DNA of 64,000 bases from Romanomermis culicivorax (Eukaryota; Nematoda; Enoplea; Mermithida; Mermithidae): assembly GCA_963922205.1 (NCBI GenBank), contig CAWUHX010000093.1:310001-374000 (forward strand), read 5' to 3'. Both the position numbers and the translations under genes were made by a program. The notes below the pieces were generated by a model that was not told the DNA's origin, did not search any database, and saw nothing but the letters and a program-made list of their open reading frames with translations. This document shows, piece by piece, positions 6,026 through 55,800 of this stretch; within the stretch, counting starts at the first letter, position 1, and the number at the start of each line of letters is the position of its first letter.

Positions 6026-6728
6026 CATGAAAAACGACTGAATTGAATGCGAAATTATACTACTTATCAAGGAAATAAATGTCTAAAAGAGTCACTTTCC
6101 AGGGCTCTAGTATCAAAACTCCGAAAAAATTTTGGCGCTTCGTGCCAGAAGTCTATTTACGAATTTTGTTGTTCCGCCTAAATTTATGGAACATCGTTGA
6201 CTTCAAGCTGATTTTTAGCTGGTTTGCAGTTGAAAAAATTTATACATTGTTCAAGCATGAACATCATTAGGCCCTAAAAATCAGATTTTAAATCGTGAAA
6301 TCAATTTTGAAAAGATTTATCTTCCAACGTTATAGAGTATCGGAATCCGAAAATCGCGATTATATGTAGTCTATCATTCTTCATTTTAGCTAAGCACAAG
6401 TATGTCAGCGGTCGAATTTTTATGCAATTTAAATTTACCTCGCTTTGGTTTTTTGTTAAGCTTTTTGTTGCTATGAATTTTGATAAATTCTTATTGTTAT
6501 CTGACCCAAAAATCAAAAAATTTCGTTTTTCTCCATTTTTGATAAATTACTGACTGCAGAAGCATGAATATGTTCGGAATAGCTAAAATATGGTTCACTA
6601 CTTTGTAATCCATGTCTGGTTGGTGATACTCAAATGGTATAGAAAATTCAACGCAGGTTTACAGTTAGCCTTTTTGTTATAAATGTTTAAGCCATTTTTT
6701 CCTAGACTTTTGACTCATAATTTTAGTT
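6026..6728. other. Upstream region of GPN2, nothing recognised
   Basis: AT-rich, no other gene seen. It should contain the GPN2 promoter, but no TATA box or initiator could be identified with confidence. Confidence 0.3.
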
Positions 6729-6745
6729 ACTTTTCTTTCTTCCAG
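6729..6745 (+). promoter_or_regulatory. 3' splice site immediately before the GPN2 start codon
   Basis: A polypyrimidine tract ending in TTTCTTTCTTCCAG leaves only CTCA before the ATG at 6750. It is either the acceptor of a 5'-UTR intron or a spliced-leader acceptor. The same layout precedes both - strand genes at 11.1 and 11.75 kb. Confidence 0.65.
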
Positions 6746-6749
6746 CTCA

Positions 6750-7949
6750 ATGCCGATGTTCGGTCAAATAGCTTTAGGACCGCCTGGTTCTGGTAAAAGC
6801 ACTTTTTGTAACGGCATGAAGCAATTTTTAGAAGCTCTCGGTCGCCGGGTCATCATTTGCAATTTAGATCCTGCCAATGAATATTTGCCCTACGAAACTT
6901 GCGATTTGGACATTCGTCAATTGATAGACTCCCGCGACGTGTCGAAAAACTTGAATTTAGGGCCCAACGGCAGCCTTATTTACTGTCTAGATTTTTTGGA
7001 GCATAATTTAAAATGGTTGATCAATCGTTTGGCGCATTTTCGCGATAAAATGAATGCCAATTACGTTTTGTTCGATTTTCCCGGTCAAATAGAACTTTTC
7101 ACGCACAAAAATTGTTTACGCAATATATTGCGGCGTTTGCGTAAAGAAGCCGATCTACAATTAGTCACTTTAAATTTAGTGGACATTCATTATTGTACGG
7201 ATGCAGCGAAATTTATTGCCGTTTTGCTAACATCTTTGAATACAATGATCAGGTGAGTCTAATTTACGTTTTGAATCAAATTGTGAATAGCAAGTAATTT
7301 GGAATTTTCTCGAAATGCTCAAGTTTTCCAGCTCAGCTTTTTGACATCTTAACGCATATTCTTTGTTCTTCAACTGTTTGTTTTTATTTTGTTTGTTGAT
7401 TATTTTAGACTAGAAACGCCTCACTTAAACATAATCTCAAAGATGGACCTATACGAAAAATTCTGCGATAGAATGCCGTTCAATCTGGACTATTTCGCTG
7501 ATGTTTTAGATTTAAAATATATTCTAGATTGTATCGACGTAAGTTCTTTACACGTTTACCCGTTTGTAGTTAGGGCACACGTTTTTTCATCATTCAGGAT
7601 GACCCGTTTCTGAAAAGATTCAAGGAAATGAACAGTCTCATATGTGAAACGATAGAAAGTTACGGGTTGCTGTCATTTGTGCCTTTGAACATACAGGTGA
7701 ATGAGTGAGCATGGTTTTGATTTTACATTCTGTCTTTCGTTTCAATCTATTGTCATTTTATTTTGAATCGATGCGAATTGTCGAAATTTCGACGTCATCA
7801 ATAATTCAATTGTGTTTCAATATTAGGATAAAAATTCGATGGCCACAATACTACGGGAGGCCGATAAAGCGAATGGTTTCTGTTTCTACGAATTGCAAGA
7901 AAGACAATTGGCGGATTTGAAAGCCCAAGAATGTGAAGTTCCTCAGTGA
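6750..7949 (+). CDS. GPN2: GPN-loop GTPase 2, four coding exons
   Basis: Coding exons are 6750-7252, 7409-7538, 7598-7696 and 7827-7949, joined by GT-AG introns of 156, 59 and 130 bp. They give 284 residues in one frame. Visible motifs: P-loop GPPGSGKST (residues 10-18), NLDPANE (38-44), the family-defining Gly-Pro-Asn loop (71-73), DFPGQIE (109-115) and SKMD (178-181). The HYCTDAAKFI and FNLDYFADVLDL blocks and the C-terminal NIQDKNS and DKANGFCF blocks are typical of GPN2 rather than GPN1 or GPN3. Known role of the family: cytoplasmic GTPases that assist assembly and nuclear import of RNA polymerases. The start is the first ATG after a strong acceptor and matches the usual short N-terminus. 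The protein is slightly shorter than vertebrate GPN2 because the C-terminal tail is short. Confidence 0.93.
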
Positions 7950-7978: not shown

Positions 7979-8050
7979 TCCCATGTGGTCTAGTGGCTAG
8001 GATTCGTGGCTTTCACCCACGCGGCCCGGGTTCGATTCCCGGCATGGGAA
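7979..8050 (+). tRNA. tRNA-Glu (UUC)
   Basis: 72 nt with a perfect 7-bp acceptor stem (TCCCATG with CATGGGA) and discriminator A. The anticodon stem is CGTGG/CCACG (8005-8009 and 8017-8021) around loop CTTTCAC, so the anticodon is TTC at 8012-8014. The A box is TGGTCTAGTGG and the B box GGTTCGATTCC. No intron. It starts 29 bp after the GPN2 stop codon on the same strand, so it must lie within or directly behind the GPN2 3' UTR. A T-run follows at 8053-8057, as expected for Pol III termination. Confidence 0.96.
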
Positions 8051-15713: not shown

Positions 15714-15903
15714 ATTATCAGAATGTAATGATAGACGTATACCGCTCGTTTAATTTGAATATATGATTTTATTCATAGTTTAGTACCAATTCAAAAATGA
15801 ATTTTGATCATGAGTAGTCGAAATTCTTTGTTTCAATTTTCAGATATTTTTCGAGCCACGCGCTGAAAATTGATAAATTATTGGCTTCAGCAGACATATA
15901 ATA

Positions 15904-16646
15904 CAGGGTGAGCCAAAAAAGGCGCCCGGTACTGACTTTCATAGCTTTCAAATGTGTGAAGCTTTTTTAATGCGGTTTCCTGCCGTCGATAAGTAAAACA
16001 TCTGACAAAAACTGAAAAATTTCAGCCAGATTTCTCCAATATTGACTGACTAGGATTAAAAATACTAAACGTCGGTTTTTTGGCAAATAAATTTTGAAAA
16101 ATTGACAAAATCAACATGTTTTACAACAGAAAAGTACAATAGGTTCAATCATGAGAACCATTAACAGCTGTAAACTACAAGAGAGTCATTTTAGTGTGTC
16201 CTACTTTGTGCTTCGCCAATAATTTTAATCGTTTTTCGATCTGGTCATTGACATTGTTTTGATTTTGCTTTTTTTCCAATTTCGAAACAAAAGCTCTTGA
16301 TTTTGGCGAAATTTTGCCCCATACTGAAACAAGAAGTTAGTGATTTCAGATTACGTGTAAACAAATCTGGGAGACTTTTAAAGTTTTATTGGGTTTAAAA
16401 AGCTTCACAAAACTTTTCTCACAATAGGACAACTTTCACTTTGATTTCACAATTTTTACTTTTTGGAAAATGACCACTTTTACTAAACTTCCGTTTTCAC
16501 AGTAACCATAGATTCTAGGAGCATAAAATTTGGTCTTTATAGCAAAGATAAGCAGGGCATTCTAATGCAGCAATCCGCATTAAAAGAGCTTCATCCGTTC
16601 AAAAGTTATGGAAGTCAGCATCGGACGCCTTTTTTGGCTCACCCTG
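15904..16646. mobile_element. Mariner-like MITE with long inverted repeats (copy 1)
   Basis: 743 bp between TA dinucleotides (15902-15903 and 16647-16648). The ends read CAGGGTGAGCCAAAAAAGGC and its inverse, with similarity continuing for about 55 bp. The TA duplication and CAGGGTG termini fit the Tc1/mariner group. There is no transposase frame. A second copy lies at 54879-55635. Confidence 0.75.
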
Positions 16647-16809
16647 TATAAGTAGAGTTGTCCCGGGGGAAACATTTTAGTCAAGGCCAGGGCAGCTGCC
16701 CCGGTGCCAGGGCCGGAGCAGGCATATGATGCATGCAATATGATAGTACATACTTATGTGCATAAACAGCATATATGAATAAATTTTTTCTCTTGGTGCA
16801 CAACATGCT

Positions 16810-24336: not shown

Positions 24337-24598
24337 ATACCTGTAAGAGGTCGGACCGTTGGCGGGAGGGTAAACCCAAAATCTTGGAGTGAGGGCCATA
24401 CCTGTACCTGGGGGGACCCCCCCACCCAGCTTGGCCAGCCCTGTACCCAAAATCATCCAACCCCCCCCCCCCCCCCAGTTTGGAAAAAATTAAAAAAATT
24501 TGCAAAAAAGTGTATGTTTTTTGACTTTTTTTGGGAAAAATTTCGACTTTTTTCTACCCCCCCTCCTCTCCCAACTGGTCGGAGGTCTTACAGGTATG
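24337..24598 (-). mobile_element. CATACCTGTA MITE copy plus an adjoining partial copy
   Basis: A full unit at 24397-24598 runs from CATACCTGTA to TACAGGTATG, inverse in orientation to 41685-41886. A partial unit (24337-24396) abuts it. Long C-runs (16 or more near 24461-24476) lie in the body. Confidence 0.7.
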
Positions 24599-25457: not shown

Positions 25458-26299
25458 TTTGTTACATTTCCTAGACTAATCGAACTTGTCTTTAGAGTAG
25501 TTTGTTCATTTCGAACTTACATTACGTTGAAATTTTCGTTCTGTTTTATTTCCGTTTCTTCAACCTTGTCTAATTTCTGGATATTTTTTTTCTCGCTATC
25601 TTTGTGTATTTTCTTTTTATATTTGTTCGGTCCTAAAAATGTTTTAAGTGTTTCACCGTAATACTCTATGGATTTTTTATATTTGCTTTCTTTTGTCTTC
25701 GACTAGTAAACATCATCATCATCATCCATAAAGCTCTTATTGTTGTGTAAATTAATATTTCGTGCAACGCATCCGATATACACAACTACAGCATCACAAT
25801 ATTTAAAAACATGAGGTATGCACAGATAATATAATTCCGCGAAAATATTTTTATAAATATGAAGCTTAAAACATCTCTAAATATGCTGCAATTCCTAAAT
25901 TTTTACGAGCCAATTTGGCTTGTGCTGCTAAATTTTTAGGAGCCAATTGGAATCTTTAGGAGCCATGGCTCTCAACTGGCCTAGAAATAAAATCCTGGGT
26001 GGGACCAAGTTGGAGGTGGGGGCCCCTCCCTCAACCTCCCGCCTAATTACAGGTTTGCACCAGACGCACTAATACCCAATTTTCGACTACGAATATCTAT
26101 CTATATATTTAACAAGAATGTAAAGACTAGAGAAAATAAAGTCGAAAACTGTGCAAATTTTCGGTCGAAACATTGTACCATTACCAACGATGACGATTTT
26201 TCTATTTGAATCAATCAAACACAAAGAGTAATAATTTCACTTTTAAATCTGAATCTGACCTGACTGAATTAACAGAGAATATTAAGAATAATAATTCCC
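25458..26299. other. Non-coding stretch with a fragment of the CATACCTGTA family
   Basis: About 25998-26055 (GACCAAGTTGGAGGTGGGGG... to AATTACAGGTTTG) resembles one end of the G-rich MITE. Otherwise no feature. Confidence 0.35.
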
Positions 26300-27045
26300 T
26301 CCAAGTACAGGTATGCCCATATCTGAAAAACTTCCAACCAGTTGGGGGGGGGGGGTAGAAAAAAAGTCGAAATTTTTCCCAAAAAAAGCCAAAAAACACA
26401 CTTTTTTGCAAATTTTTATAATTTTTCCAAACTGGAGGGGTTGGGTGATGTTGGCATACCTGTACTTGGGGGGGGTTGGGGGGGGACCCCCCCCAACTTG
26501 GCCAACCCAGTACCCATTTCGGATTCACCCCCCCAACTGGTCGGAGGTCTTACAGGTATGGATGTTGGGTACATGGTTGGCCAACCCCCAAGTACAGGCA
26601 TACCTGTAAGACCTCCGACCAGTTGGGGGGGGGGATAGAAAAAAGTCGAAATTTTTCCCAAAAAAGGCCAAAAAACATAAACTTTTTTGCAAATTTTTTT
26701 AATTTTTTCCAAACTGGGGGGGGGGGTTGGATGATTTTGGGTACAGGGTTGGCCAAGTTGGGGAGGGGTCCCCCCAGTACAGGTATGAGTACAGGTATGG
26801 GTATGCATACCTGTAAGACTTCCGACCAGTTGGGGGGAGGGGGTAAATCCGAAATTTTGGGGGGGGGGGGGTAGAAAAAAGTCGAAATTTTTTCCAAAAA
26901 AGGCCAAAAAACATACACTTTTTTGAAAATTTTTTCAATTTTCTCCAAACTGGGGGGGAGGTTGGGGGGGGGAGGAAATGATTTTGGGTACAGGGTTGGC
27001 CAAGTTGGGGGGGTCCCTCCCCCAAGTACAGGTATGTGGGTATGC
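26300..27045. repeat. Cluster of CATACCTGTA MITE copies with long G/C runs
   Basis: At least four whole or partial units in mixed orientation. CATACCTGTA or TACAGGTATG appear repeatedly, with intervening AAAAAAGTCGAAATTTTT, GCCAAAAAACA and GGGTTGGCCAAGTTGGGG blocks. Runs of 8-15 G or C occur many times. Frames through it are low-complexity proline/glycine artefacts. Confidence 0.75.
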
Positions 27046-28639
27046 CAAAAAGCACGATTTGTGGAAAAAAAATAACATTGTTTCCAGAGGCAATCAATCT
27101 GTTACAGTACATGATATAATGGAAACTGTATATGTTGTTCAGTAGTAACTTGCTTTTCCCTATATGGAGATATCCATACCCGAATCCTAAATCCATACGC
27201 CTTACGCATGCAATGAATAAATTGAACGTTTCTAGAGATATATAAATCACAGAGAATAGCCTGAGCAAGTGTTTAAGACATTCATATCCAACAAAAACAT
27301 TTATAATCAGTTTGTTATAAAATGCTTCTAAAACAAAAAATGACACAGATATTAGGTGAATTGAAAATCCCGTACATGAAGCTTTTACTGTAGATTTTTT
27401 CACTCAAAAAAAATCCCAGTGTCAGTTGAGTGTCGTCACAAAGTTTTAGTTCCACCTGACGTACGGCATGGCAGAAAATACTGAAAATATAAAATGGTAC
27501 CTGCTTTCCAGTTTCATTATTTGGAAGCATTTACTATAGATATTTGAAGACACCCTGATCGTGGAAAAAAAACACCCAAGGAAAAAATCTAAAACACTTT
27601 TAAATCTGCACTATATATGTACATCCCAAATTCAAATTTTGTTCCATCCAGATACCCGATCAAAAAACTGTTGGCTGATTTCCGTACCACCCTGCAAAAC
27701 TTGCTTTGCGCTGGTTTTTTTATCTGCATTGATCATTGCAGGTGATAAGTTGTCGAAAAAAATTGAATTTGTGGTTTTGGACTTCATTGCTAAAATATAT
27801 TCCACCCAAAGTTCGGTATCTGACGCTTTCCCCAGTTGCAAAACCAAATATCGTTAGGTAGTGAGATTATGAGAAATTTCATCATTATCAGGAACAGAAA
27901 TAGTGCAATCAAAATCGATTTTTGAACTAAACTCAATGACTACAGTATGTGTTTGAATGGCGTATGCAGCGAGTCGATGTTCAATTTGAAAAATTATAAG
28001 TCTTTTACTGTAATCAATTAGAAAATCTTTCTCGTACAGCAGCGACACACTGACTGAAAATCTAAAATAATCTGGTCAAATGCATTTATATACGTGTTGA
28101 TACTGTTCTATTCAGATCAAAAATGGATAAGCATTATATTGTTTCTTTATTTTTGACCTTCCATCTGTGAATAAGAAATTGATTTTTTATACAGTATATA
28201 GTTTTGTTTTTCACTTCGTGAAAACTGCGTTACGTAACTCTTTCTTTGTCTGGTGCATTGATAAATAGGCTATAAACAGAAATACCCAGAATTTTGCTCA
28301 TTTCATGAAATCGGTTTCTTCCTGCATAAAAAACAGACCCTTATCTTCTGGCCATCGATACCTTCATCCGAATAGCGTTCCGAACGGGACACATGAAATC
28401 TGCATGCTGATACAGGTTCCGTCCGAATGAAGCATTTCTAAGCTTTTTCCAAGTGTGGAGCTCCTCCGACAAAATACTCTCCGAATTGTCATCCATACTT
28501 TTTTTGGGGCCCAATAAAATCGCCTACTCACATTGTTAAGATAGTTCAGTAATTTTTACTGATTGGCGTAAAGGTCAGTTTCTATAGAGAATAAGTAGTA
28601 CAAGATCAATTAGGTCGATGAAAGTTTTATAGGAACATG
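27046..28639. other. Non-coding stretch with a degraded CTATAGTCTG MITE
   Basis: 27311-27549 shares TATAAAATGCTTC, TTTTTTCACTC, TGCTTTCCA and TTTGGAAGCATTTACTATAG with the copy at 59250-59503. No gene was recognised in the rest. Confidence 0.4.
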
Positions 28640-39979: not shown

Positions 39980-41528
39980 CATACCTGTACTTAGGGGGGT
40001 TGGGGGGGGACCCCCCCAACCAGGGTTGGCAAGGCTTTGGTTTTTTGGTTTTTGGTTTTTTCGGTTTTTTAAAAAAACCAAAAAATTGGAAAATCTCTGG
40101 TTTTTTGGTTTTTTTCCAAAATTATTGGGAAACTGTTTTTTCACATTAGTCGATCTTCTAGGCATGTATTGGTGTCTATCTAAATCAACAAAACAATTAA
40201 TTTAGTCGAATTGACTTCACTACAAAGTAGAAGAAAGTCGTATTTTTATGATTACATTTCGTACTCAAAAGATGTAATATAAATCAATCGATATCCTTCG
40301 TATCCATCTTGCAACCACACATTTAGTACATGAGTCAACTTTGCTATAATTTGCTCACAAAAAAGTAGACACTAAATCTTTCCTGGAATGTACTCCAACC
40401 ATACGGGGTGACATCCATTCATCCATATCATCATCAAAATGTTATAAAACATGACTGAGTTTAATATACTGAATTTATTGTTACGGTAAGCTTTTTAATT
40501 TCGAAATTTCAAAATATAAATGAGACAACAATAATAAAATTTCATACAGATCAGTTGAGCATACTGTAGGTTAACAAAGAGAAGAGATTTTGAGTGTCTA
40601 TTTTTATGTGACTTGACGTCGCTACTAAGTAGAAAAAATTGTGCAAAAAATAAAAATATGTATATTTCTATCATGCAAGCGAGAATAATATATATAATAA
40701 GACCCATTTGCTGTAGTTATAGTTCGCAGACAGGTTTGAAAAGCAAAAATTTGGAAACATCTGAAATGTCTATGTGTGACCTTCAACTGCAGTTTGTAAT
40801 ATTGATAACATATGTAATAATCTATCAATTTAAAACCCTCTTATGGAAAACGCTATACTTAAAAATTGTGTCATTTCAAATTCTCTGTGCATATGTATAT
40901 ATGTGATGCATTTATACAATTCTGTAGTTGATTTCTTTTGAGTTTTGATTACATACATTGTGTATTGTATATTTCTCTTTATTTGTAATTTTTCTTCTTT
41001 TCCTTGAATGTGCCTCTTACATATCGCATGCTCTGTTCCATTTTTACTTTTCTTGTGTTCTTCACTCATGGTTCCTTTGTTATGTGCCCACGAATACTGT
41101 ATTTCTATTGCTAAATAGGGATTTTCTATAGCATAAAATAATGACACCTGATAAGATTAATACTTCTAGCTACCATTTTACTGCTCCCTAACTCGTCTTA
41201 GATGATACAGGGAGCTTCCAGCAGTTTTTTACATAGTTATTTTGATGTACCATACATTCTAAAAAATTAAACCAGAAAAAAACCAATAAAAAACCATAGA
41301 AAAACCAAAAAACCATAAAAAACCACTAAAAACCAAAAAACCAAAAAGTCGAAATTTCAAAAGTTTGGTTTTTGCCAACCCTGCCCCCAACTTGGCCAAC
41401 CCAGTATCCAAAATCATTTACCCCCAACCCCCAGTTGGGAAAAAATTAAAAAAATTTGCCAAAAAGTGTATGTTTTTTGGCCTTTACCACCTCCCCCCCC
41501 CCAACTGGTCGGAGGTCTTACAGGTATA
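39980..41528 (-). repeat. CATACCTGTA MITE split by a hAT element
   Basis: The left piece (39980-40020) begins CATACCTGTACTTAGGGGGG. The right piece (41384-41528) continues CTTGGCCAACCCAGTATCC and ends GGAGGTCTTACAGGTAT. Between them lies the hAT insertion 40021-41383. The right piece also lacks some of the internal A/T block. Confidence 0.7.
40021..41383. mobile_element. Non-autonomous hAT element (1363 bp)
   Basis: Ends CAGGGTTGGCAA and TTGCCAACCCTG, flanked by the exact 8-bp duplication CCCCCAAC (40013-40020 and 41384-41391). Subterminal blocks are dense in GGTTTTTTGG (left) and AAAACCA (right) words. No transposase frame. A related fragment lies at 13910-14220. Confidence 0.85.
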
Positions 41529-41684
41529 TTTTCAGGCGAAAAAAATTTTGGGCTCTTCAGCCAAATTTTGGGGGATTCGAGGTTGGAAAGATGGATTTTA
41601 CTACATTTTAAGAGGATTTTAAAAGTTCTTGTTGGTTGAAAAATCCAAATTTTCGGTTGCTTGCCTTATCAATTCAATTTTAGT

Positions 41685-41886
41685 CATACCTGTAAGACCT
41701 CCGACCAGTTGGGGGGGGGTAGGAAAAAGTCGAAATTTTTCCCAAAAAAGCCAAAAAACATACACTTTTTGGCAAATTTTTTTAATTTTTTCCCAACTGG
41801 GGGGGGGAAATAATTTTGGGTACAGGGTTGGCCGAGTTGGGGGGGGTTCCCCCCCAACCCCCCCCCCCCCCCCAACTACAGGTATG
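41685..41886 (+). mobile_element. CATACCTGTA MITE, complete 202-bp reference copy
   Basis: CATACCTGTA...TACAGGTATG inverted ends flanked by the exact 8-bp duplication ATTTTAGT (41677-41684 and 41887-41894). This places the G-rich repeat family of this window in the hAT class. Body: CCGACCAGTTGGGG, AAAAAGTCGAAATTTTTCCC, GGGTACAGGGTTGGCC, then long G and C runs. Confidence 0.85.
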
Positions 41887-41894
41887 ATTTTAGT

Positions 41895-43416
41895 TGCACG
41901 TTCTTCATATGACTTCACTCGATATAAAGGAAAATTATAGAACTGATTTAAAACTCACACAATTTAACCAGGAAGCAAAACTCATAAATTTATTTCTCAG
42001 CGTTCTACTATATGAGTATTAAAAAAAATATTCTCGTTCTTCGCGTCGACCTCGACATTAACGATAATGCAAATTCAAGAAAAGATAACAATTAATCACA
42101 ACAAAAATATCTGCGACTGAACTTCTCTTTGATCAGCTATTTACATGCATTAGATAATTTGAAAGAACATCTTTTATATGTTTTTTATGATTATCTGACG
42201 GTCTAGAACTCCAAGAATTTAATTTTTCGTGTTCCTCGGTAGATTACCGACTTCAAAAAAATTAACAATCTCGAAAAAGTATAAATGAAGAAGCAGCTCT
42301 GGACATTTTTGCGCAATAAAAAAGGACTACTCGAAAATAGCGAAAAACAATTTAGCCCTTTTCGCCAAATGACGAAAGGGTCTGCGCGAAAAATAGAGAA
42401 CAGTGCGCCCAAGAACCAAAATTAAAATCAAAAAAATTGATACGCTGATTTGCTTTTACAGTAGAGCTTTGTAATATCAGCGATTATCAGTAAAACTTAA
42501 CACCTTTATTAATAAATAGATATAGCGCTTCAAAAAACGATTGTGACGTCACATTACCATATTATTCCCACACACATTTTTGATCTAGTTCTTCAAAATT
42601 ATTGAGGGGACTCAGGTTTTTTGGGACTATGTTCCACATTCAGATTCAGAAAATTTGACTGTAATCTTTCTCATAGACACCGAGTTTTAAATTTTTTTTT
42701 GCGCATAGCATCTTTATGCCATACAAATATGTGACTTATGTTATCAATAATTCTAAACACATCTACAAGTATTTTTTCACTCAGAATGACGTTTTAAAAT
42801 TTTGAAGCAAAGTCATAAAAAAGTGGTCAAAATTCTTTTTCGTCACTCTATTCATTTCATTGTACCAAGTTGACATAAAAACCATACTGAGTTCACGCAT
42901 GTGTGTTTAATTTCCGGAAACTTGTGGTCAACATTAAACCATTTGGTCAAAACAAGCATGCTGCCAGAATGAACCAATGACGAAGTTTTTGTTTTGACCT
43001 GCCATTCTGACCATGCCAAGAGATGATCAGCTCATTGAAAATTGGCGTAAAAAAGCCCACAGGCAGGACACTATTTCTTCACACCCTCTTTCTGCTTCGT
43101 TTTGGGTCCAGTTAAACATAAAGCCGTTTTCTTCATCTTTTGTGATCATGTGCATACGGCAGTTGTAGAACCAAAGTTATTATAATTAAAAAGCTATCGA
43201 TAGTCAAACATCATATAAAGTATCATCTTATTTACCTTTTCTTTATCATTTCTCATAGCTGTGATTACGTCATGGTAATTTGCTTTGATCATCAGGATTG
43301 GTTGTGTCAGGGTTAGGTTGGGGGACCCTGTTGACTTTGGACAGAAATGCGTTGTTTTCTTTGATACAATTTATTTATAACAATCTTACGTACAAAATAA
43401 TCCTATGTGCGAACAT
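41895..43416. other. Non-coding flank of the LTR element
   Basis: No gene supported. 42203-42412 resembles the right end of the hAT-like MITE family with TTCGCC/GGCGAAAA words (42332-42400) and finishes near GAGAACAGTG. The LTR element's 4-bp target duplicate ACAT is at 43413-43416. Confidence 0.4.
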
Positions 43417-44321
43417 TGTAACGACCAGACTTTGTGAAGTACTTTACTTTTAACCAATGGTCGCTACGACGAGCAAAAGGGGCACGGGCGGTACTATATG
43501 GGCGATACGACTAATGATAATCTACGGCTGCTTGAGACGTCGATACGACAATACGAAAACGCGGTCTGGCTTTACAATAACGAATAGGCCTCGGTTCAAG
43601 TTGCTTTCGTACAAATGGCCGCTTGCAAATATAAAAATGGCGGCGAGCGCGGTTTGAAACGACGAATTCAAATATCCAAAACTCTAACCAATAATAACAA
43701 AATCACGCTTTGCTTCTCTTTTTATACAACGTTTTTGGCCACTCCCTGGGCGTCGCGGGAGGTCGTGCTTCTGTCCATCTTCTTCCGCCAATCGTCGCTT
43801 CCTGCTTCGCTTTTTATGCTTACTTAGTTAGGCCTTTCTAATGCTTTCCTGGTACTGTATGCTTTTTGTGCTTCGCTTACTTTCTACGGTGGGCTTGGCC
43901 ACACCTCTGTGCTTCTCTGCATGCTTCCTGTATCGGTTTCTCTGTATACACATGTTTTGTGGGGCCGTCGCTACCGTTACACTTGAGACTACTGTCTGGT
44001 GGGGCTTTTATGTATTTTACTGTGTGCAGGTGTTGTTTACGATTTTTACGGGGGGATTACTGTAGCTGTGGAATATGTAGTTTAGTGTAGGTTCTAGGGG
44101 ACCAGCTGCCATTTGTGCAAATTAATTGGGGCATCCTAATTGGGCTACCGAGGTGTGAACGGATCAAAATAAAGTACTTCACCTAATTTTAGAGGAATGT
44201 TGGGGTGTGAATCCCAGACACCCTTGAGACGATAAAATACGAAAATGAATGATATTTAATAAATGTTTATCACATACACTATGCTATGTATTTACAGTAC
44301 TGCTTTAGCAGGTAGGTTACA
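43417..44321 (-). repeat. 3' LTR of the retroelement
   Basis: 905 bp, TGTAAC...GTTACA at its ends. Matches 51722-52625 along its whole length with scattered substitutions. Many short frames on the + strand occur in both LTRs but are not conserved as protein. Confidence 0.92.
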
Positions 44322-44334
44322 TTTCCCTCCTTCC
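44322..44334 (-). promoter_or_regulatory. Polypurine tract
   Basis: On the - strand GGAAGGAGGGAAA directly abuts the 3' LTR start (TGTAAC). This is the expected primer site for plus-strand DNA synthesis. Confidence 0.8.
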
Positions 44335-44352
44335 GTAGTTGAACATCCTCGT

Positions 44353-45648
44353 TCAAGGCTTTCGAGGTTGAGGAGGGGTGGGGGCAGCTTCAATAGGTGC
44401 TTTCCGAGGGTAGAAAGGGGTTGTCTCATTGACATGTACTGTAAATGTAATATTCTTATGGGGGTGTTTGAGTGTAACGTTGGGGTACATGAAATTTGTA
44501 ATTGTATAGGGTCCGTTTTGGCGAGGTAGGACTTTGGGAGTCAGCCCTTGTTTACACGAATGATTTTTGTAAAGAATAAGATCACCTGCCTTGTAATGTA
44601 TGTTCTGAGCATGCTTGTTATACTGACGGGTATAGTGGTCCTGGGCTTTTTGTAAACTTTTCTGCACGGTTGAGAGTGCTTCTGTAAAATGTGATTTTAC
44701 ACGAAGGGCGTAATCGCCTAAATCAACCATGTAGGATGTGGGGAAAAAATTTAAGGCTGTGTCTGACGGCAGATTAGCCTGTCTACCGTGGAGTAATTCA
44801 AATGGGGGATATGAGGTGCTATCATTTTTATGAAAGTTGATCGAAAAAACGGCATAGGGCAGATAAGTATCCCAATCAGTGTGATTTGAATTGATGTACA
44901 TGCGGATACGGGTGGCTAGGGTCTGGTTGCAACACTCAACTTCCCCATTGGCAATGGGATGGTATGGGGTGGTATGAATTATTTGGGTGTTGCATAAACT
45001 TGTGATCCAGGAAAAGAGATCGGATACAAAATCGGAGCCAGGATCACAATGGATGATTTTTGGGGACCCATGACAGCAAACAATTTTGGTTACGAATAAT
45101 TTGGCGATAGTGGCTGCAGTGATATCAGGGGTCGGGAATGCCTCTTCATACTTTGTGAAATAGTCGATGAAAACGACAATGAATTGGTTGCTGTCTTCAG
45201 TGAGGGGTAATGGCCCCATGCAATCAACACCGACTCTATCAAATGGGCCAGTTGGCTGAATTGGTACCCAATTTGCATGTACTTTGTGTCGGAGGGCTTT
45301 CTGTGTCTGGCATGGGTGGCAAGTTTTGCAGTACCGTTTGATATCAGGGCTCATTTGGGGCCAAAAATATTTTTGTCTGAGCAAGTGTAAAGTTTTCCTG
45401 GCAGCAAAATGGCCGGTGAATTTGCTGTCATGATGTGAGGCGATGAGATGTTGGACTTGTGACTTGGGAATGTATAGTTTTGCCTGTTTGTCGACTATAC
45501 CGAAGAGGATGTTTTGATGCACTGCGAATTTGATCAGAGTAAGGGGGTGTTTTTGGGCGATTTTTGCTAAAATACTTTTGACAGTTGGATCAGTGCATTG
45601 GAGTTCGGCAAAATTTTTCTGTTGCTCTTCTTGTTCAGTTGCTTCGGC
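44353..45648 (-). pseudogene. Retroelement integrase (pol 3' part)
   Basis: Open from just after the TAG at 45651-45649 to 44353. An ATG is not expected because integrase is released from a polyprotein. The N-terminal HHCC zinc finger is visible (HHDSKFTGHF ... CKTCHPCQ). The catalytic core follows with D in VDCMGPL, D in IIHCDPGSDF and E in GEVECCNQTL, spaced as in DDE integrases. The C-terminal part has PFYPRKAP. The core looks intact. It is in the same frame as RT-RNase H but separated by two stops (TGA 45672-45670, TAG 45651-45649), so no full polyprotein can be made from this copy. Confidence 0.85.
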
Positions 45649-45669
45649 CTAAAGAACAGAATTTATGGT

Positions 45670-47532
45670 TCATATTTCAGGGCGGGTTTCTAGTTGCTCA
45701 ATATCAAAGGATTGCTTCGCTGTCTGTGAGGGGAATCGAAAAACAGCATCTGTGTTGCAGTTAGCAGTGCCTTTCTTAGGTCGAATGTCTCGCTGAATAC
45801 CAGAGAGGGCTAATCCCCAAGGGGCAATGGGAGGGGACGGATTTTCCTTTTGTAAGACTGCCTGGACTGTTGTATGGTCAGTGTGTACAATAACATGTTG
45901 CTGGAAAAGATAGGGGCGGAAATACTTGACAAACTCAACTACTGCAAGGGTTTCCAATTCAGTTATCGGGTAGTTAGGTTCTGCGGGTTTGAGTGTGCGG
46001 CTCCCAAAAGCAATGGGGCGATCCTGACCTTTACTATCTAGCTGACTGAGAATGGCGCCGATTCCGAGTTTTGAGGCGTCAGTTTGCAGAATAAACAGTT
46101 TGGTGAAGTCCGGATGCTGCAGTATTGGGGCATGAATGAGTAATTCTTTTAGCTTAGTGAATGCGTTTTGCTGTTCAGGGCCCCAGGAAAATTCCGAATT
46201 CTTTTTGAGTAGGGATGTGAGTGGGCTAGAAACTTGAGAGCAATTTGGGATGAATCTACGATAATAAGAAGGTAGGCCAAGGAATGACTTGACTTCTTTT
46301 GAGCTTTTGGGTGTGGGTATGTCATAAATGGACTGTACCTTATGGGGATCTGGTGAAATGCCTTGCTGAGAAATAACGTGGCCTAAGTATTGGACTTGGG
46401 GCTGGCAGAATTTGCATTTTTGTATGTTTAGTTTAAGGCCTGCTTGTGAGAATCGGGCAAGGATAGTGTCTAAACATTCCAGGATTTGGGCATGGGAGTC
46501 TGCGAATACCAAGACATCGTCGAGATATACAAGGCATGTGTTCCATTGCAATCCTGAGAGGATAACATCCATTAACCTTTGGAATGTGGCTGGAGCGTTG
46601 GTGAGGCCAAAGGGGAGATAGTTGAATTGATACTGGCCAGCTGAGCAATTAAAGTATCTTTTTTGTATCTTTTTATCTTTTTTGGTTACTTTATTGAGAC
46701 CCCAAAAATCAATGCATAAACGATGGCCTCCATCTTTTTTGGGGACTAAAACTGTGTTGGTACACCATGGAGAATTGCTCTGGCTTATGACACCTGCTGT
46801 TGCGAGTTGCTCAACCTCTGCTTGTATGATTTGTTTCTCTTTCGGGGAAGTCCGATAAAGGTGCCTGCATACGGGTTGGGAGCCATTCGTGTCAATTGTA
46901 TGTGAAACGAGGGTGGTTCTACCTACGTCCATTTTGGATTTAGCATATAACGTAGGGTATTTGGAGAGGGCGCGTATGAGTTGAGTTTTCTCGGTTTCTG
47001 TGAGGTCACTGGAGGTTAAATTAACATTTTCTTTTAACCATGTGAATGTATCAAAACAGTTGGGCTGGTTTTGCGTGGAGGGGGTTACGTTAGCGGGAGC
47101 ATGTTGTTTTGGGATGTAACAGGAGACTGTACCAATGCATGTTCCGAGGTAAAGAATTTGAGCTGTGTCTTGTGTGTTTAAGACCGATATGCGTATGCGA
47201 CTGTTTTGGTTTTCAGAGACACAGGCTGCAAAATGGACTTTGGGGTTCTGTTTGGGTTTCGGAGTAAATTCAAGCTGTTTAACTTGTAGGTACGATTTGG
47301 GCAAGGGGACAGTGAATTCGGTTACTGTACAGGGTGGTAATTCTAATTTCTCGTCTAGATAGGTTCCACCATGGGTCGAAAGGGGGCTATATTCTAGGCC
47401 ATTACAGGGTAGTATGACATTGCCAAATTTGACCTGAGATTTCTGATTGTTGATAGTATATTCCGAAAATCGACTGAGAAAGTTTTTGCCTAAAAGGATG
47501 TCTGCTGTGCAATCTTTTTGGACATGAACCAT
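45670..47532 (-). pseudogene. Retroelement protease C-terminal part, RT and RNase H, internally deleted
   Basis: 620 codons. The start retains the protease ILLGKNFL block. RT has VPKKDGGHRLCIDF and LNKVTKK, then jumps near 46665 to FNYLPFGLTNAPATFQR. The segment that should carry the first catalytic aspartate (motif A) is missing, roughly 60 residues by comparison with the family. The YLDD active-site motif remains (46501-46530). RNase H has LQTDASKLGIGAIL, ELETLAV and HTDHTT; its end (NTDAVFRFP) is altered. With motif A gone this RT cannot polymerise. Frame 3 is shared with protease and integrase. Confidence 0.85.
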
Positions 47533-47541
47533 TATTGTTTC

Positions 47542-47883
47542 CTAGATAGTTTGGGCTGTTACTGTGACAAAAGTGGTTCCTACAAAGTGAATCGGGAGAT
47601 TATTTGCTGCTTTTGCTTGGACTAGCGGGGGTTTCATATCTAACTGTAAAAGTTGAGGGATCCGTGAATCAATGAGTGAGTAGACTGCACCAGTGTCAAT
47701 CATACCTTTTGTGATTAATTTGCCATTAAGTGTGATTGGAATATGAGGGGTATGCTTCTCAGGTACATTTTGGGGTGGCTTGTTTGATGCAGATTGATGA
47801 ATTTGATCAATGAGTTCAATTGCAGGAGTTTGGGGGGGTATCAATATCGACAAGGATGTACTTCTGCTGCGTTTTTGCCCCAC
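47542..47883 (-). pseudogene. Retroelement aspartic protease, N-terminal part, with in-frame TAG
   Basis: Contains the catalytic MIDTGAVYSLID motif (about 47707-47672). The frame is ended by TAG at 47544-47542, which splits the protease domain from its ILLGKNFL block 36 codons later in the same frame. Upstream, an overlapping frame (about 47930-47810) carries FGHALLELANY-type sequence, suggesting another frameshift at the domain start. A regulated readthrough inside the protease domain would be unusual, so decay is the simpler reading. Confidence 0.75.
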
Positions 47884-47965
47884 GATAATTAGCTAATTCT
47901 AAGAGAGCATGGCCGAATGATGGGGGGATGGTTTCATGTAAACGTCTGTTGTGTGATGGTATTTC

Positions 47966-49669
47966 CTATGCATGTTCATTTGTGGCATGATGGTTGTAAC
48001 AAGGGAAATACTTTCGAAGAATGAGAAAAGAATAAAAGATGCCTGCAATAACTACAGCAATAATGGCTAGATTGATAATGATTTGCAGGGGTCCTTTGAT
48101 TAAATTGTTTAACCCATCTGTGAGACTTTGGGTGGTACCGGTTATTACATGTTCTATGCCTTGACCGGTGCCAGAGAGGGTATTTCCAATTGCTTGGCCA
48201 GTGCCTGAGATCATGTTGTAAACTGTATCTGAGTTAAGGGACATTTGGGCGGTGTAATTGACGAGTTTTTTAACAACCTTTTCGAGTGTGTGAGTTTTGT
48301 AAATGTATTGTTTCAAAAAGAGTAAATTGGTTGAAATAGTTGCAAGTTGATCATGAAAAATAGCGGGTGTATTAAAATCGAAAAGGGAGAAATTTTGGTT
48401 CCAGACGATTTCTAAAGGTAAATTTGCGACATGCGGGGATCCTGTTTCACTGACCCATGTATTGTTCTGTTTGTAAAAGGCTACATGCATGTGATGGCAG
48501 TCAACGGTTTGTGAGAACGGGGTCAAATCGTTGCCTCCTGGATTTGAAAACATGAGTTCGGTTCCTACGAGAATGGGTAAAAGTTTGTAGCATGTTTGGT
48601 TGATTTTATGGTTGTAAAAGATTTTAGATGTGTTTACCTGCTTGCAGGGCCAGACTGTGAGGGCTTCTCCTGTGAATTCTGCTATGATGTCGGTTCGCTG
48701 TAGGAATGCCCACACCCCAAGGGTTGCATCAAGGCACAAAATTTGCCATAGGAGATCAAGGTGACGCTGTGCCTGTCTGCATAATTCATTCCATATGTTT
48801 TTGAAATTTTGAATTTCGAATTCCTGGATTTTGTCTGCTAGATGATTTAGTTTCGCATTAATAGTTTCAAAATCATCAAAATTGTAGAGTGTAGTATGAG
48901 TTTCGTTGGTTTTTGGGGTTAAAAATGTGTTACGATGTGGGGTGCTTTTGTCTAATTGTACAACAATGCCTTGTTCGGTTAGAATGCTGTCTTGGATTTC
49001 GGGGCAGTTGGGGTTCGAAAAGAGTGTATTTTTAACTGAAAATGCACCTTGTAGCTCTTCCATTATCATGTGGGTTTGCGTCAGTTTTATGGGATGTGTA
49101 TTTTTGTATTCGAAGGGGCATAAGTTTTCAAATGCTGTTTCATTCCAGATAATGGATCCGTCGGCTGTGACACAATGACCTGATGTCGGTTTGCATGACC
49201 CCAGGTCACCTAATGTGCCTGTCATAGATTTTCCATTCCAAGATGCTATTTGTCCGATTTCTATGATGACGTTAGTGACCGGGGTACAGTGGTCTGTACA
49301 ACACCATGTGTATTCTATGCTTAGGGAGTTGTTTGTTGACCAAAATCCTGGTTGGGTTTCGTATAATTTTTGACCATTGTGTTCTTTGTCTATAACAATT
49401 GCCTTACAAACATGCGGGGTTAGATTTTGCATTTCGGTTTGGTCGAAGACAATACCTTTTGATCCAAAAAATCCTGTATTAGTACAAATTTTGCGTTTGC
49501 GAACACTGCATTTGTATGCATCTGTTATGTGAGGTTTAGTGGAGGGGATATAGATTTTTCCGAATGTCTGTATGGGTTTGTCTACTGTGGAAGGGGGCAT
49601 GCATGATACAAATTTGGTATGCTGACTGAGTGACCCCTCAATGAAGTTCCACACATCTGAAATTGGGCA
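47966..49669 (-). CDS. Env-like membrane glycoprotein of the retroelement
   Basis: Open for about 568 codons from a TAG at 49672-49670. There is no ATG at the N-terminus; the first in-frame ATG is about 19 codons after a GTG at 49654. Seen directly: many paired cysteines (CCTDHCTP, GSCKPTSGHC), about eight N-x-S/T sequons, and a central HLDLLWQILCLDA block. Near the C-terminus are Gly/Thr-rich repeats (SGTGQAIG, SGTGQGIE), a 25-residue membrane segment (starts PLQIIINLAIIAVV) and a 16-residue tail with RKYFPCYN. This is the layout of a type I viral surface protein. I do not recognise the family; the cysteine pattern recalls glycoproteins of negative-strand RNA viruses captured by retroelements, but that is weak. 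A hydrophobic signal-like stretch lies just upstream in another frame, and TTTCAG at 49662-49657 could be a splice acceptor. The position between gag and pol is exceptional. Confidence 0.7.
   Translation of the reverse strand, partial: CPISDVWNFIEGSLSQHTKFVSCMPPSTVDKPIQTFGKIYIPSTKPHITDAYKCSVRKRKICTNTGFFGSKGIVFDQTEMQNLTPHVCKAIVIDKEHNGQKLYETQPGFWSTNNSLSIEYTWCCTDHCTPVTNVIIEIGQIASWNGKSMTGTLGDLGSCKPTSGHCVTADGSIIWNETAFENLCPFEYKNTHPIKLTQTHMIMEELQGAFSVKNTLFSNPNCPEIQDSILTEQGIVVQLDKSTPHRNTFLTPKTNETHTTLYNFDDFETINAKLNHLADKIQEFEIQNFKNIWNELCRQAQRHLDLLWQILCLDATLGVWAFLQRTDIIAEFTGEALTVWPCKQVNTSKIFYNHKINQTCYKLLPILVGTELMFSNPGGNDLTPFSQTVDCHHMHVAFYKQNNTWVSETGSPHVANLPLEIVWNQNFSLFDFNTPAIFHDQLATISTNLLFLKQYIYKTHTLEKVVKKLVNYTAQMSLNSDTVYNMISGTGQAIGNTLSGTGQGIEHVITGTTQSLTDGLNNLIKGPLQIIINLAIIAVVIAGIFYSFLILRKYFPCYNHHATNEHA
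49657..49662 (-). promoter_or_regulatory. Candidate 3' splice site for env-like mRNA
   Basis: AATTTCAG directly before the env-like frame, which lacks its own start codon. A spliced subgenomic RNA could supply the start, as in other env-bearing retroelements. Unproven; the pyrimidine tract is weak. Confidence 0.35.
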
Positions 49670-49688
49670 CTACAGGATGTGGGGATTA

Positions 49689-51478
49689 TTATGCATAAAA
49701 ATATACAATACAACGGCCAATATAGTGTTCTAGTGGAGGCGGCGGGGTACTGTATATTTTTTGGTTCTGGCCGGTTTGGCGTGGCAGCTTTTGGTGTTGT
49801 TCGGTTTTGGGCTGAGGGGGTGGCTGGTTTGCAATCTGAATGGTCTGTAAAATGTTAGAAGTTGAGTCATGGGATGGGGTTTGGATTTGCTTACTTGTGG
49901 GGGTCGGTAGCAGTGTTTGGTGGGGGCGGAATTGGTAGGGTTCGGGGGTCAGGCAGTGTAAAAGGGACAATAAGTTGCAGCCTGCTTTCGATGGAGTTTC
50001 GGGGGTGGTGGGCGACTTGGTGTCTTGCTTTTGGGGGATCTTGTAGCCTACGGGGATGGTGGGCGGCGATTTTTCGATTTTTGCGGCTTCAGGCATGGGG
50101 GGTGGTGAAATGGCGCACCAATCTTGTATGTCCAGGTCGAGGACGTATTTGTCACTACGGCGGTGGGTAGTGGGCATAATTGTTCCTAAAGTAGTCTGAG
50201 GGCCGTTAGTTATGGCGGGTAATGTTGAGTAAAATGTGGGGTCATCAATGTCCATGAGGGGTTGGGGTTGCCTGTACTCAATGCAATTTTGAATATTACG
50301 ACTCTGTTGATTCGGACAGTACCTACTTGTATGACCTCTCTGCTATAGAAAACATTGAAAATTTGAGTAGGGTTTTGAAAGGCAGTTATTAGATCTATGT
50401 CCTGTTTGGGAGCAGTGGATGCATCAGCTTTTACAATCACGCGTACTGTGATTATTACTGAAACAGATTTCACATGATTTTCGGGTGCCTACTGATTTAC
50501 AATTACGAGCTACGTGTCCAATTTGTCCACACTGGAAGCATGTGGGTTGCCTAGGGGTGGTATTGTTCCTGTAAGCATTATTCCTGCTGAAAGTATTGTT
50601 ACTGAAATTGTTGTAGCTTCTCTGTTGTGGGGGTTGAGGTTTTTGTTTGATCTGCAACTGTAAATCTTTTACTTGTTGTTCTAACTGATGCAAGAGGTCC
50701 TGTTGGTCGGTATTTTTGGTTAGGGAAAAGATGGGTTCGGGTTTTGGGGGTATAAATGGAAGAGTGTTGGACTTTAACTCATTTCTAAGGATTTGCTGTT
50801 CAATGTAAGCTGCTTCATCTGACATTTCTTTTAGAGTTGCGAACCTTCTATACTTAATTGCTTCCCTGATTTTGTTTCGCATGCCTTCTACAAAGAGGGG
50901 TTTTATGATCATTTCTCGTGCGTCTGTGTTAAAGTTAGGGTAGGTGAGGGTTGCGAGGTGTTCTAGATCAAACAAGAATTTGGTTACTGTTTCTGATCGC
51001 TTTTGTTTTCTCTCGCGTAAGAATTGTTGAAGAATTGTTGATGTAGCTCATTATCTCTATTGTTTGGGAAAAATGCCTGTAATGCGACTTTATACTGCTC
51101 GTATGTGTGGGGAGGGTTTTCTGAATTGGCTAAGCTTTTGAATTTTGCTAACCCGGCTCCTCCTAAATGAATCTCTAAACATGCCAACTTTAACTGTACC
51201 TCTGTATCTTTCATGCCTTGAAGTGCCATGAATTGTTCTAAATGTTTGTTCCATTCACCAAAATGTTGGGTCACGCTGCCCGTGAATACTGTAGGTTTCG
51301 CGTAGAAATTATTCGCCATGTTATTACGAATGTTTGCTGTTCTTAGATCGTCTATTAGGGTAGGGTTTACTGTATTCTGATTCAATTGTGTGCGTAGGGT
51401 ACAAAAATGTTCTGAAAATAAATCGTTTATCTGTTCTCTAACGATTTCTCCTATATGATCTTGCATTTGGTGGGTCAT
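49689..51478 (-). pseudogene. Retroelement gag with four zinc knuckles, broken
   Basis: ATG at 51478. The capsid-like region (PTVFTGSVTQHFGEWNKHLE, then YEQYKVALQAF) runs to 50984. There the frame is lost because an 11-bp word (AAGAATTGTTG on the + strand) is tandemly duplicated at 51019-51029 and 51030-51040. The second frame continues with LATLTYPNF and two CX2CX4HX4C knuckles (CFQCGQIGHVARNC, CEICFSNNHSTRDC), then TGA at 50426-50424. Past the stop the same frame shows a third knuckle (CIHCSQTGHRSNNC) and a damaged fourth that contains TAG at 50345-50343. A Pro/Gln/Thr-rich tail of about 190 residues then ends at 49689. A four-knuckle nucleocapsid with a long proline-rich tail is larger than the usual one or two knuckles. 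Confidence 0.8.
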
Positions 51479-51702
51479 TCTTGGTTTATGCTGGGATTTC
51501 TGCTCAAATGCTTCAATTTTTGCTTCACGCTGTATTCGTTTAAATGTATCGCTTAATGTTTCGTTGGAGGGGATTTCCAGTTTGCTTTCTACGAATACTG
51601 TCTTACTGTAGGAAATGATTACTACTGTATTATCTAATGCTTCTAAATGCCCGGATAAGAGTACACCTAATTGGGGGCAGGGAGTTCCAGTGGTTAACGG
51701 TA

Positions 51703-51716
51703 CGGTACGGTCACCA
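51703..51716 (-). promoter_or_regulatory. Primer-binding site
   Basis: On the - strand TGGTGACCGTACCG begins 5 nt after the 5' LTR. TGG start and location fit a tRNA 3' end (…GGTCACCA); the first eight bases are as in tRNA-Trp-primed retroviruses, but the tRNA is not determined here. Confidence 0.6.
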
Positions 51717-51721
51717 AAATA

Positions 51722-52625
51722 TGTAACGACCAGATTTTGTGAAGTACTTTACTTTTAACCAACGGTCGCTACGACGAGCAAAAGGGGCGCGGGTGGTACA
51801 ATACGGGCGATACCACTAACGATAATTGACGGTTGCTTGAGACGTCGATAGGACAATATGAAAACGCGGTCTGGCTTTACAATAATGAACGGGCCTCGGT
51901 TTAAGTTGCTTTCGTACAAATGGCTGCTTGCAAATATAAAAACAGGGGCGAGCGCGGTTTGAAACGACAAATTCAAATATCCAAAACTCTAACCAATAAT
52001 AACAAAATCACGCTTTGCTTTTCTTTTTATATGACGTTTTTGGCCACTCCCTGGGCGTCCCGGGAGGTCGTGCTTCTGTCCATCTTCTTCCGCCAATCGT
52101 CGCTTCCTGCTTCGCTTTTTATGCTTACCTAGTTACGCCTTTCTAATGCTTTCCTGGTACTGTATGCTTTTCGTGCTTCGCATGCTTTCTACGGCGGGCT
52201 TGGCCACACCTCTGTGCTTCTGTGCATGCTTCCTGTATCGGTTTCTCCGTATACACATGTTTTGTGGGGCCGTCGCTACCGTTACACTTGAGACTACTGT
52301 CTGGCGGGGCTTTTACGTATTTTACTGTGTGCAGGTGTTGTTTACGATTTTTACAGGGGATTACGATAGCTGTGGAATGTGTAGTTTAGTGTAGGTTCTA
52401 GGGGACCAGCTGCCATTTGTGCAAATTAATTGGGGCATCCTAATTGGGCTACTGGGTTGTGAATGGATCAAAATAAAGTACTTCACGTAATTTTAGAGGA
52501 ATGTTTGGGTGTGAATCCCAGACACCCTTGAGATGATAAAATACGAAAATGAATAACATTTAACAAATGTTTATCACATACAGTATGCTATGTATTTACA
52601 GTACTGCTTTAGCAGGTACGTTACA
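51722..52625 (-). repeat. 5' LTR of the retroelement
   Basis: 904 bp; partner of 43417-44321. The promoter should lie here, but no TATA box can be singled out with confidence. Confidence 0.92.
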
Positions 52626-52629
52626 ACAT

Positions 52630-54464: not shown

Positions 54465-54878
54465 TTTACAAAATTTGTCTCCTCTTTGACCTGACCGAAT
54501 TAGATTTTCGAAAATAACAGTAAATAAAATCTTTAAAAAAAAAATTTAGGGACAGTTGGCTAAATCAGCAGTTTTAAAATTTTTCAAAATTTTCAAAGGC
54601 TGACATGTAATAAACAACAACCATACACAATGATTGAGGCAAATAAGATTTCTTCATAAATAAAGGAGTGAGGCATAAGGGTGCCAAGTGACTTTTTCTC
54701 GAGTGCATAAAAGTCTCAAGTAACAAACACATATCACATTTATGCTTTTCTGTCATTTATAATTTTTTGTCACTTTAATATTATAGTACCTAATACACTG
54801 AAAAATCTCGCTGAATATTGCAGACAATGTCAAAATCAATATGCCACGTGATAGACTAGGTTGTAAGACGATCTTATA
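54465..54878. other. Non-coding spacer
   Basis: AT-rich; nothing recognised. Confidence 0.35.
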
Positions 54879-55635
54879 CAGGGTGAGCCAAAAAAAGTTG
54901 ACCGATATTGACTCTTTCAAAGCTTTCAACTGGGTGAAGCTTTTTTTGCGGTTTTCTGCCGTCGAAGATAGAACATCTGGCATGAAAATTGCGAAGTTTC
55001 AGCCAGATTGCTCGAATATTGACTGACTAGAATCAAAAATACTAAACGTTGGTTTTTTCGCAAATAAATTTTGAAAAATTGATAAAAATTGGACAAAATC
55101 AACATGTTTTACAGCAGGAAAAACAATACATTCAATCATCAGAACTATATAACAACTAGAAACTACAAGAGAACCGTTTTAGTGTACCCTACTTCCTGTT
55201 TCACTAATAATTTTCATCGTTTTTCGATCTGGTCAATGACAGAATTGATTTTGTTTTGATTTTGCTTTTTTTTCCAATTCCAACACAAAATCTGTTGATT
55301 TTGGCGAAATTTAGCACCATATTGAAACAATAAGTTGATGACTTTAAATTACGTGTAACTTACAAATCTGGGTGACTTGTGTGTCAAAAGCTTTACAAAA
55401 CTTTTCTCACAATAGGATAACTTTTACTTTGATTTCACAATTTTTACTTTTTGAAAAACGACCACTTTTACTAAAATTCTGTTTGTACAGTAACCATAAA
55501 CACTAGGAGCATAAAATTTAGTTTTTTAATCGAAGATAAGCAGGGCAATCTAATGCAGCAATCCGCATTAAAAAAGCTTTATCCGTTCAAAAATTATGGA
55601 AGTCAGCACCAGTCGCCTTTTTTCGGCTCACCCGG
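54879..55635. mobile_element. Mariner-like MITE with long inverted repeats (copy 2)
   Basis: 757 bp between TA dinucleotides (54877-54878, 55636-55637). Left CAGGGTGAGCCAAAAAAAG; right TTTTTTCGGCTCACCCGG. Collinear with 15904-16646 through most of its length (for example GACTGACTAGAATCAAAAAT and TTTTCGATCTGGTCA blocks). Confidence 0.75.
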
Positions 55636-55800
55636 TAAATGTATAACTCGATTTCTAAAATAATGTTACTTAGCACTTTCATGCCCTGACTCCTTCAGTT
55701 ATGTTTTCAGATGAAGTGTTTTTACAGAATACTGGTTGGTGACGTGTAGGTTCCATGAAGTGAAACCTAAAGCAGTCGAAATAGTCACTATACCGTTTTT

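Follow-up and report, generated by a model that had tools for sequence, protein, structure and literature searches.

A Ty3/Gypsy-like retroelement of Romanomermis culicivorax with a viral-type fusion glycoprotein encoded between gag and pol

The gene order usually given for retroviruses and env-bearing retroelements is gag-pol-env, with env on its own mRNA; in retroviruses and errantiviruses, env comes after pol. The element described here, from the nematode Romanomermis culicivorax, carries a glycoprotein gene (env) between gag and pol. It lies in a window of 64,000 nucleotides (the whole stretch of DNA analysed; contig CAWUHX010000093.1, positions 310,001 to 374,000), where a 9.2-kb long terminal repeat (LTR) retroelement occupies positions 43413-52629 on the minus strand. 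The initial annotation of this DNA held that known elements place env after pol, which is correct for retroviruses and errantiviruses but overlooked Burro, giant Gypsy-like elements of planarians that carry env between gag and pol, in frame with both, and were called the first such case (PMC6431247). Because Burro has been published, the gag-env-pol order is rare but has a precedent (PMC6431247). In the literature searched, whose coverage excluded most subscription papers, no further gag-env-pol case was recognised besides Burro.

Glycoproteins of a related kind have been described in other settings. Anakin is a mosquito BEL/Pao LTR element with a chuvirus glycoprotein (PMC7642597), and Jingchuvirales glycoproteins, from the same virus group, occur in animal genomes, some near Gypsy fragments and one inside an unclassified Bemisia element (PMC10084718). 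As argued below from the sequences of the window and its relatives, the window probably holds a decayed copy of a recently mobile Ty3/Gypsy-like element, encoding a single membrane-threading polyprotein in the order Gag, signal peptide, Env, anchor, protease, reverse transcriptase (RT), RNase H and integrase.

Gene order in the window copy and across the genome

On the minus strand of the window, gag, the glycoprotein gene, protease, RT-RNase H and integrase follow one another between the two LTRs. The initial annotation had read the locus as an LTR retroelement with the glycoprotein between gag and pol, all inside one 4-bp target duplication, and the LTRs, the duplication and the frames were all recovered. 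It had left two accounts of this order, a distinct gag-env-pol lineage or an internal rearrangement of one copy, which were set against other copies in the assembly (359 Mb, 595 contigs). The LTR search, in which 40 of 3,066 first-look candidates were scored, yielded 41 matches, and the whole-genome searches with env and integrase were scored for the best 77 of 4,664 and the best 97 of 8,225 candidates, respectively. Because only the best candidates were scored, copy numbers are lower bounds and the sample leans to well-kept copies.

All five older copies compared, as pieces around env that are 92-94% identical to the window, have the order gag tail-env-protease. Env and integrase matches could be paired at 37 places, one of them in the window, and integrase lies downstream of env on the same strand in all 37 and upstream in none; the spacing is exactly 2,427 nt in 33 pairs, and 33 share one frame. 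As a control against the bias of selecting by env, 20 copies were picked by integrase, all of them absent from the env list, and env was found at the expected place upstream of integrase in 20 of 20. The glycoprotein was never found after integrase, as the env of retroviruses and errantiviruses would be, and these counts bear out a distinct gag-env-pol lineage. That the window copy alone was rearranged, for which only its own broken frames speak, is refuted, since the same order was found in every other copy inspected, across two subfamilies with LTRs ~82-83% alike.

The LTRs of the window copy, at 51722-52625 (5', 904 bp) and 43417-44321 (3', 905 bp), are 94.1% identical to each other and end in TG..CA. 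The tetranucleotide ACAT stands on either outer side, at 43413-43416 and 52626-52629. LTR ends of this kind, together with a target duplication within the 4-6 bp range of Ty3/Gypsy elements, were found in the window copy and in recent copies. A polypurine tract adjoins the 3' LTR (44322-44334, minus strand) and is also present in the 10 of 10 recent copies read, and a putative primer binding site, a TGG-initial stretch next to the 5' LTR (51704-51716, minus strand), is kept in the same proportion (10/10). Outside the window, the first six LTR sites compared comprised four solo LTRs, with no element sequence within 1.5 kb, and two 3' ends with integrase.

Between the LTRs, all on the minus strand, the frame with the gag start (50984-51748) has no Pfam match and is matched in five of five older copies. 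It is followed by the capsid end with the zinc knuckles (50424-51047; zf-CCHC, 2.5e-6) and by an open frame for a proline-rich gag tail (49689-50342). The glycoprotein frame (47966-49669; Monjiviricetes_fusion, 7.9e-17) runs 567 codons from stop to stop and comprises an ectodomain, a membrane anchor, placed by hydropathy in a sister copy, and a short tail. It lacks its beginning, and the signal peptide stands immediately before it in a different frame (49666-49728). The first part of the linker from the Env tail to protease (47893-47965) leads to the protease frame (47542-47892), in which gag-asp_proteas scored 0.0048, below the cut-off (5e-9 in another copy). The protease end, RT and RNase H share the next frame (45670-47541; RT_RNaseH_2, 3.9e-37; RVT_1, 6.9e-25), where the RVT_1 profile is entered only from position 100, and integrase comes last (44353-45648; Integrase_H2C2, 3.9e-21; rve below cut-off). 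Since gag is split over several frames, pol contains stops and RT is incomplete, the window copy is decayed.

The profiles above the Pfam cut-off in the window copy are zf-CCHC, Monjiviricetes_fusion, RT_RNaseH_2, RT_RNaseH, RVT_1 and Integrase_H2C2, and the order protease, RT, RNase H, integrase is that of Ty3/Gypsy pol. Gypsy-type RNase H and H2C2 models were matched and no BEL protease family was among the window's Pfam matches; the Gypsy-type and BEL protease models are ones that we take to distinguish the two groups. By its Pfam matches, the element therefore appears to be Ty3/Gypsy-like.

A common reading frame and its glycoprotein

In copies other than the window's, the signal peptide and env are in one frame, and env is commonly part of a much longer one. 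Among the 76 other scored env matches, 45 have env inside an open frame that is 2,450 codons long or longer; the frame reaches 2,000 codons in 55 and falls under 1,250 in three. Within the long frame, the order is gag knuckles, signal peptide, glycoprotein, anchor, protease, RT and integrase. Over 4.65 kb, the env frame is free of stops in 23 of 29 other loci and interrupted in six. In one open copy, whose pieces were scanned apart, the same frame contains three zinc-knuckle stretches, Monjiviricetes_fusion (7.5e-19), gag-asp_proteas (5e-9) and RVT_1 (7.6e-18); a second copy, scanned in its gag and protease-RT pieces, and a third, scanned in its env piece, gave concordant Pfam matches. The four knuckles counted in the initial annotation did not hold for the window, where the exact pattern occurs three times, and did hold for 28 of 29 other loci.

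Because other copies keep env in one long open frame, the separate glycoprotein frame of the window is, on this comparison, a product of the decay of a single gag-env-pol frame. The gag-env breaks of the older copies fall at different places from copy to copy, which fits independent decay of a continuous frame. A programmed frameshift from gag into env-pol, suggested by the window frames, was dropped given the one common frame of the open copies, as was read-through at the env end, since the terminal stop of the window env is not common to the five older copies.

Judged by profile, Env is a chuvirus/mononegavirus-type fusion glycoprotein. The family PF24664 (Monjiviricetes_fusion) scored 60.9 bits in the window and 67.6 and 67.8 bits in two other copies, against a curated cut-off of 27; the alignment covers only ~170 of the 567 residues (254-425 in the window). 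Matches to the gB and BDV_G profiles, which bear on a class III fusion fold, were below cut-off, and a sequence search of the PDB with env found no match.

From the gag tail to the Env tail of one copy, only two strong hydropathy peaks were found, one being the signal peptide where gag meets env and the other the Env anchor, and the gag and protease-RT pieces of the same copy lack any 19-residue stretch above 0.91. A 60-residue stretch over the signal peptide and the Env start is open in 29 of 29 loci, all with Cys/Ala at -3/-1 of the likely signal cut. The ectodomain of the copy examined contains 16 cysteines and nine sequons, a sequon number not above chance (14.7% of shuffles reach nine).

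Selection, age and a candidate membrane-threading polyprotein

The ratio of nonsynonymous to synonymous differences (pN/pS) was determined by region in 20 gap-free copies ranked by env similarity, a choice that lowers the env value. It was 0.11 for gag, 0.36 for the signal peptide, 0.047 for env, 0.09 for the Env-protease linker, 0.06 for protease and 0.067 for the RT part. The proline-rich gag tail (L039:1201-1395) is nearly unconstrained (0.80) amid strongly constrained neighbours. As counts from env-picked copies overstate selection on env, an integrase-picked control was run, in which env had a pN/pS of 0.100 (17 usable of 20 copies; three were dropped, one because of a stop and two because their matches were split and contained stops). 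When five recent copies were compared with the window, env gave values of 0.12-0.17. On these substitution patterns, env is clearly under purifying selection.

These values also bear on what Env does. It may be supposed that Env has no role in entry and is kept as a polyprotein domain, for example one anchoring replication complexes on intracellular membranes. The position of Env within the polyprotein would suit such a role. In the copy examined, nevertheless, the glycoprotein is whole: its signal peptide and anchor are in place, and its ectodomain has 16 cysteines. In the sample picked by env, the rate of env evolution is as low as that of the enzymes. We consider this explanation improbable.

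Judged by its LTRs, the family is multi-copy and recently mobile. LTR pairs of 10 recent copies diverge by 0-1.35%; four of the 10 pairs are identical, one of them over only 396 bases owing to an assembly gap. The 4-bp duplications match in eight of the 10, with one mismatch and one running into a gap. In the window and the five older copies, LTR pairs diverge by 2.7-5.8%. The LTRs of the recent copies, the gapped one excepted, are ~82-83% identical to those of the window, and the gag-env-pol architecture thus spans two subfamilies. On contigs C81, C122, C149 and C2, adjacent integrase matches lie ~8.4 kb apart on one strand, and on C48 an LTR has element sequence on its outer side; these arrangements seem to be head-to-tail units sharing LTRs.

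Starting from features read directly in the copies, namely the order of the genes, their union in one frame in many copies, the signal peptide and the Env anchor, the selection on env and the recent insertions, we propose how such a polyprotein could work. The whole frame would be translated as one polyprotein, with Gag remaining cytosolic. The internal signal peptide would take Env into the lumen of the endoplasmic reticulum and the Env anchor would return the chain to the cytosol, so that Pol would be cytosolic after two membrane crossings. Signal peptidase would split Gag, ending in a membrane-held signal peptide, from Env-Pol, and Pol would stay tethered to the Env tail until released by the element's protease. 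On budding, Gag and Pol would come to lie within the particle and Env on its outside, and the element would pass between cells as an enveloped particle. With a membrane-threading polyprotein, neither a gag-pol frameshift nor a spliced env mRNA would be necessary. Whether the family is an enveloped reverse-transcribing lineage in which this polyprotein replaces both devices, with RT, RNase H and integrase carried into the particle on the cytoplasmic face of Env, we regard as evenly balanced. If true, it would add a further route of polymerase packaging beside Gag-Pol fusion and separately made Pol; a secreted domain in the middle of a polyprotein raises the question of packaging and of topology.

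The main competitor accepts the single frame as real; in it, splicing would yield a subgenomic mRNA for Env and a different form, with env removed, for Gag-Pol, env being an in-frame cassette. Retroviral Env usually comes from a spliced mRNA (PMC10309623), and a splice-acceptor-like stretch (seen by eye, unscored) lies upstream of the window's signal peptide. Against this, the Env-protease linker evolves as coding sequence (pN/pS 0.09), and gag, signal peptide, env and pol share one frame in many copies, which splicing alone would not demand. We consider this competitor unlikely, while giving it more room than an Env with no entry role, and prefer translation of the frame as one membrane-threading polyprotein.

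Several observations weigh against that preference. A single frame is by itself compatible with spliced mRNAs. Scoring only the best candidates in the env and integrase searches favours intact copies. In the five older copies, the Env-protease linker is open in one, stopped in three and broken in frame in one, and the sole older copy open from the gag tail through the linker has stops within env. The structure model of the glycoprotein is weak (predicted local distance difference test score 27.5). Env had no relatives outside this genome in the protein search or in a scan of IMG/VR, and of the 457 relatives of the database protein P0012, described below, the 120 that were listed all lack PF24664.

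Relatives, neighbouring sequences and comparison with known systems

In P0012 (716 residues, 8.65-kb contig), a membrane helix precedes the end of an RNase H and then an integrase. The protein may represent a further env-pol fusion; as a candidate it was set aside, because its alignment to the Env-protease stretch does not stand out from random expectation (109 of 1,000 shuffles scored as high). No integrase relatives were found in the IMG/VR scan or in phage records, and three contigs with a Gypsy-like integrase came from bacterial/archaeal bins.

Elsewhere in the window, an exon-like GTPase frame on the plus strand (6714-7253; PF03029, 3.4e-50), presumably of the GPN-loop type, marks a host gene near the element, and a tRNA-Glu (TTC) gene lies at 7979-8050 on the same strand. 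A cluster of related repeats, ~83-92% alike (26214-27403, 24397-24598 and 41384-41854), has long overlapping frames on both strands, which look like repeat artefacts. Another dispersed repeat is present in two copies, 82% alike (15892-16648 and 54866-55637), and a further repeat family occurs at 25-686 and near 3.1, 5.4, 14.8 and 18.8-19.7 kb.

Errantiviruses and retroviruses likewise carry gag, pol and env between LTRs, with env behind pol and made from a spliced mRNA, as is stated for retroviral Env (PMC10309623). TelKA of bdelloid rotifers resembles the present element in having acquired a fusion glycoprotein from negative-strand RNA viruses; this is a class I F protein of paramyxovirus type, encoded by the env-like ORF3, which is described as lying downstream of pol (PMC5408684). 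Troyka elements encode no envelope (PMC12440569). Anakin shares the chuvirus glycoprotein and has a BEL/Pao pol, as against the Gypsy-type Pfam models matched here (PMC7642597). The Jingchuvirales survey of 2023 found no clear capture of a glycoprotein by Gypsy elements (PMC10084718); the element described here places a chuvirus/mononegavirus-type glycoprotein in a Gypsy-like element. As a working analogue, the core-E1 junction of hepatitis C virus has a capsid protein that ends in the envelope's signal peptide within one polyprotein (PMC5402940). The same arrangement, in which capsid and envelope share a frame with a signal peptide where they meet, was found in 29 of 29 loci as sequence features only, and hepatitis C virus is an unrelated RNA virus without reverse transcription.

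Burro is the closest counterpart. There, as in the open copies here, env lies in frame between gag and protease-RT within one long polyprotein frame, and the env region of Burro also matches mononegavirus fusion glycoproteins (PMC6431247). The two differ, as compared by description, in that Burro is more than 30 kb long and contains numerous extra domains, BIR, ankyrin and BCL2-like ones among them (PMC6431247), whereas this element is 9.2 kb long; Pfam scans of the window element and of pieces of other copies found none of the extra domains. The recent mobility of the family and the purifying selection on its env show that a lineage with env in frame can persist as a compact 9-kb element, beyond the giant Burro.
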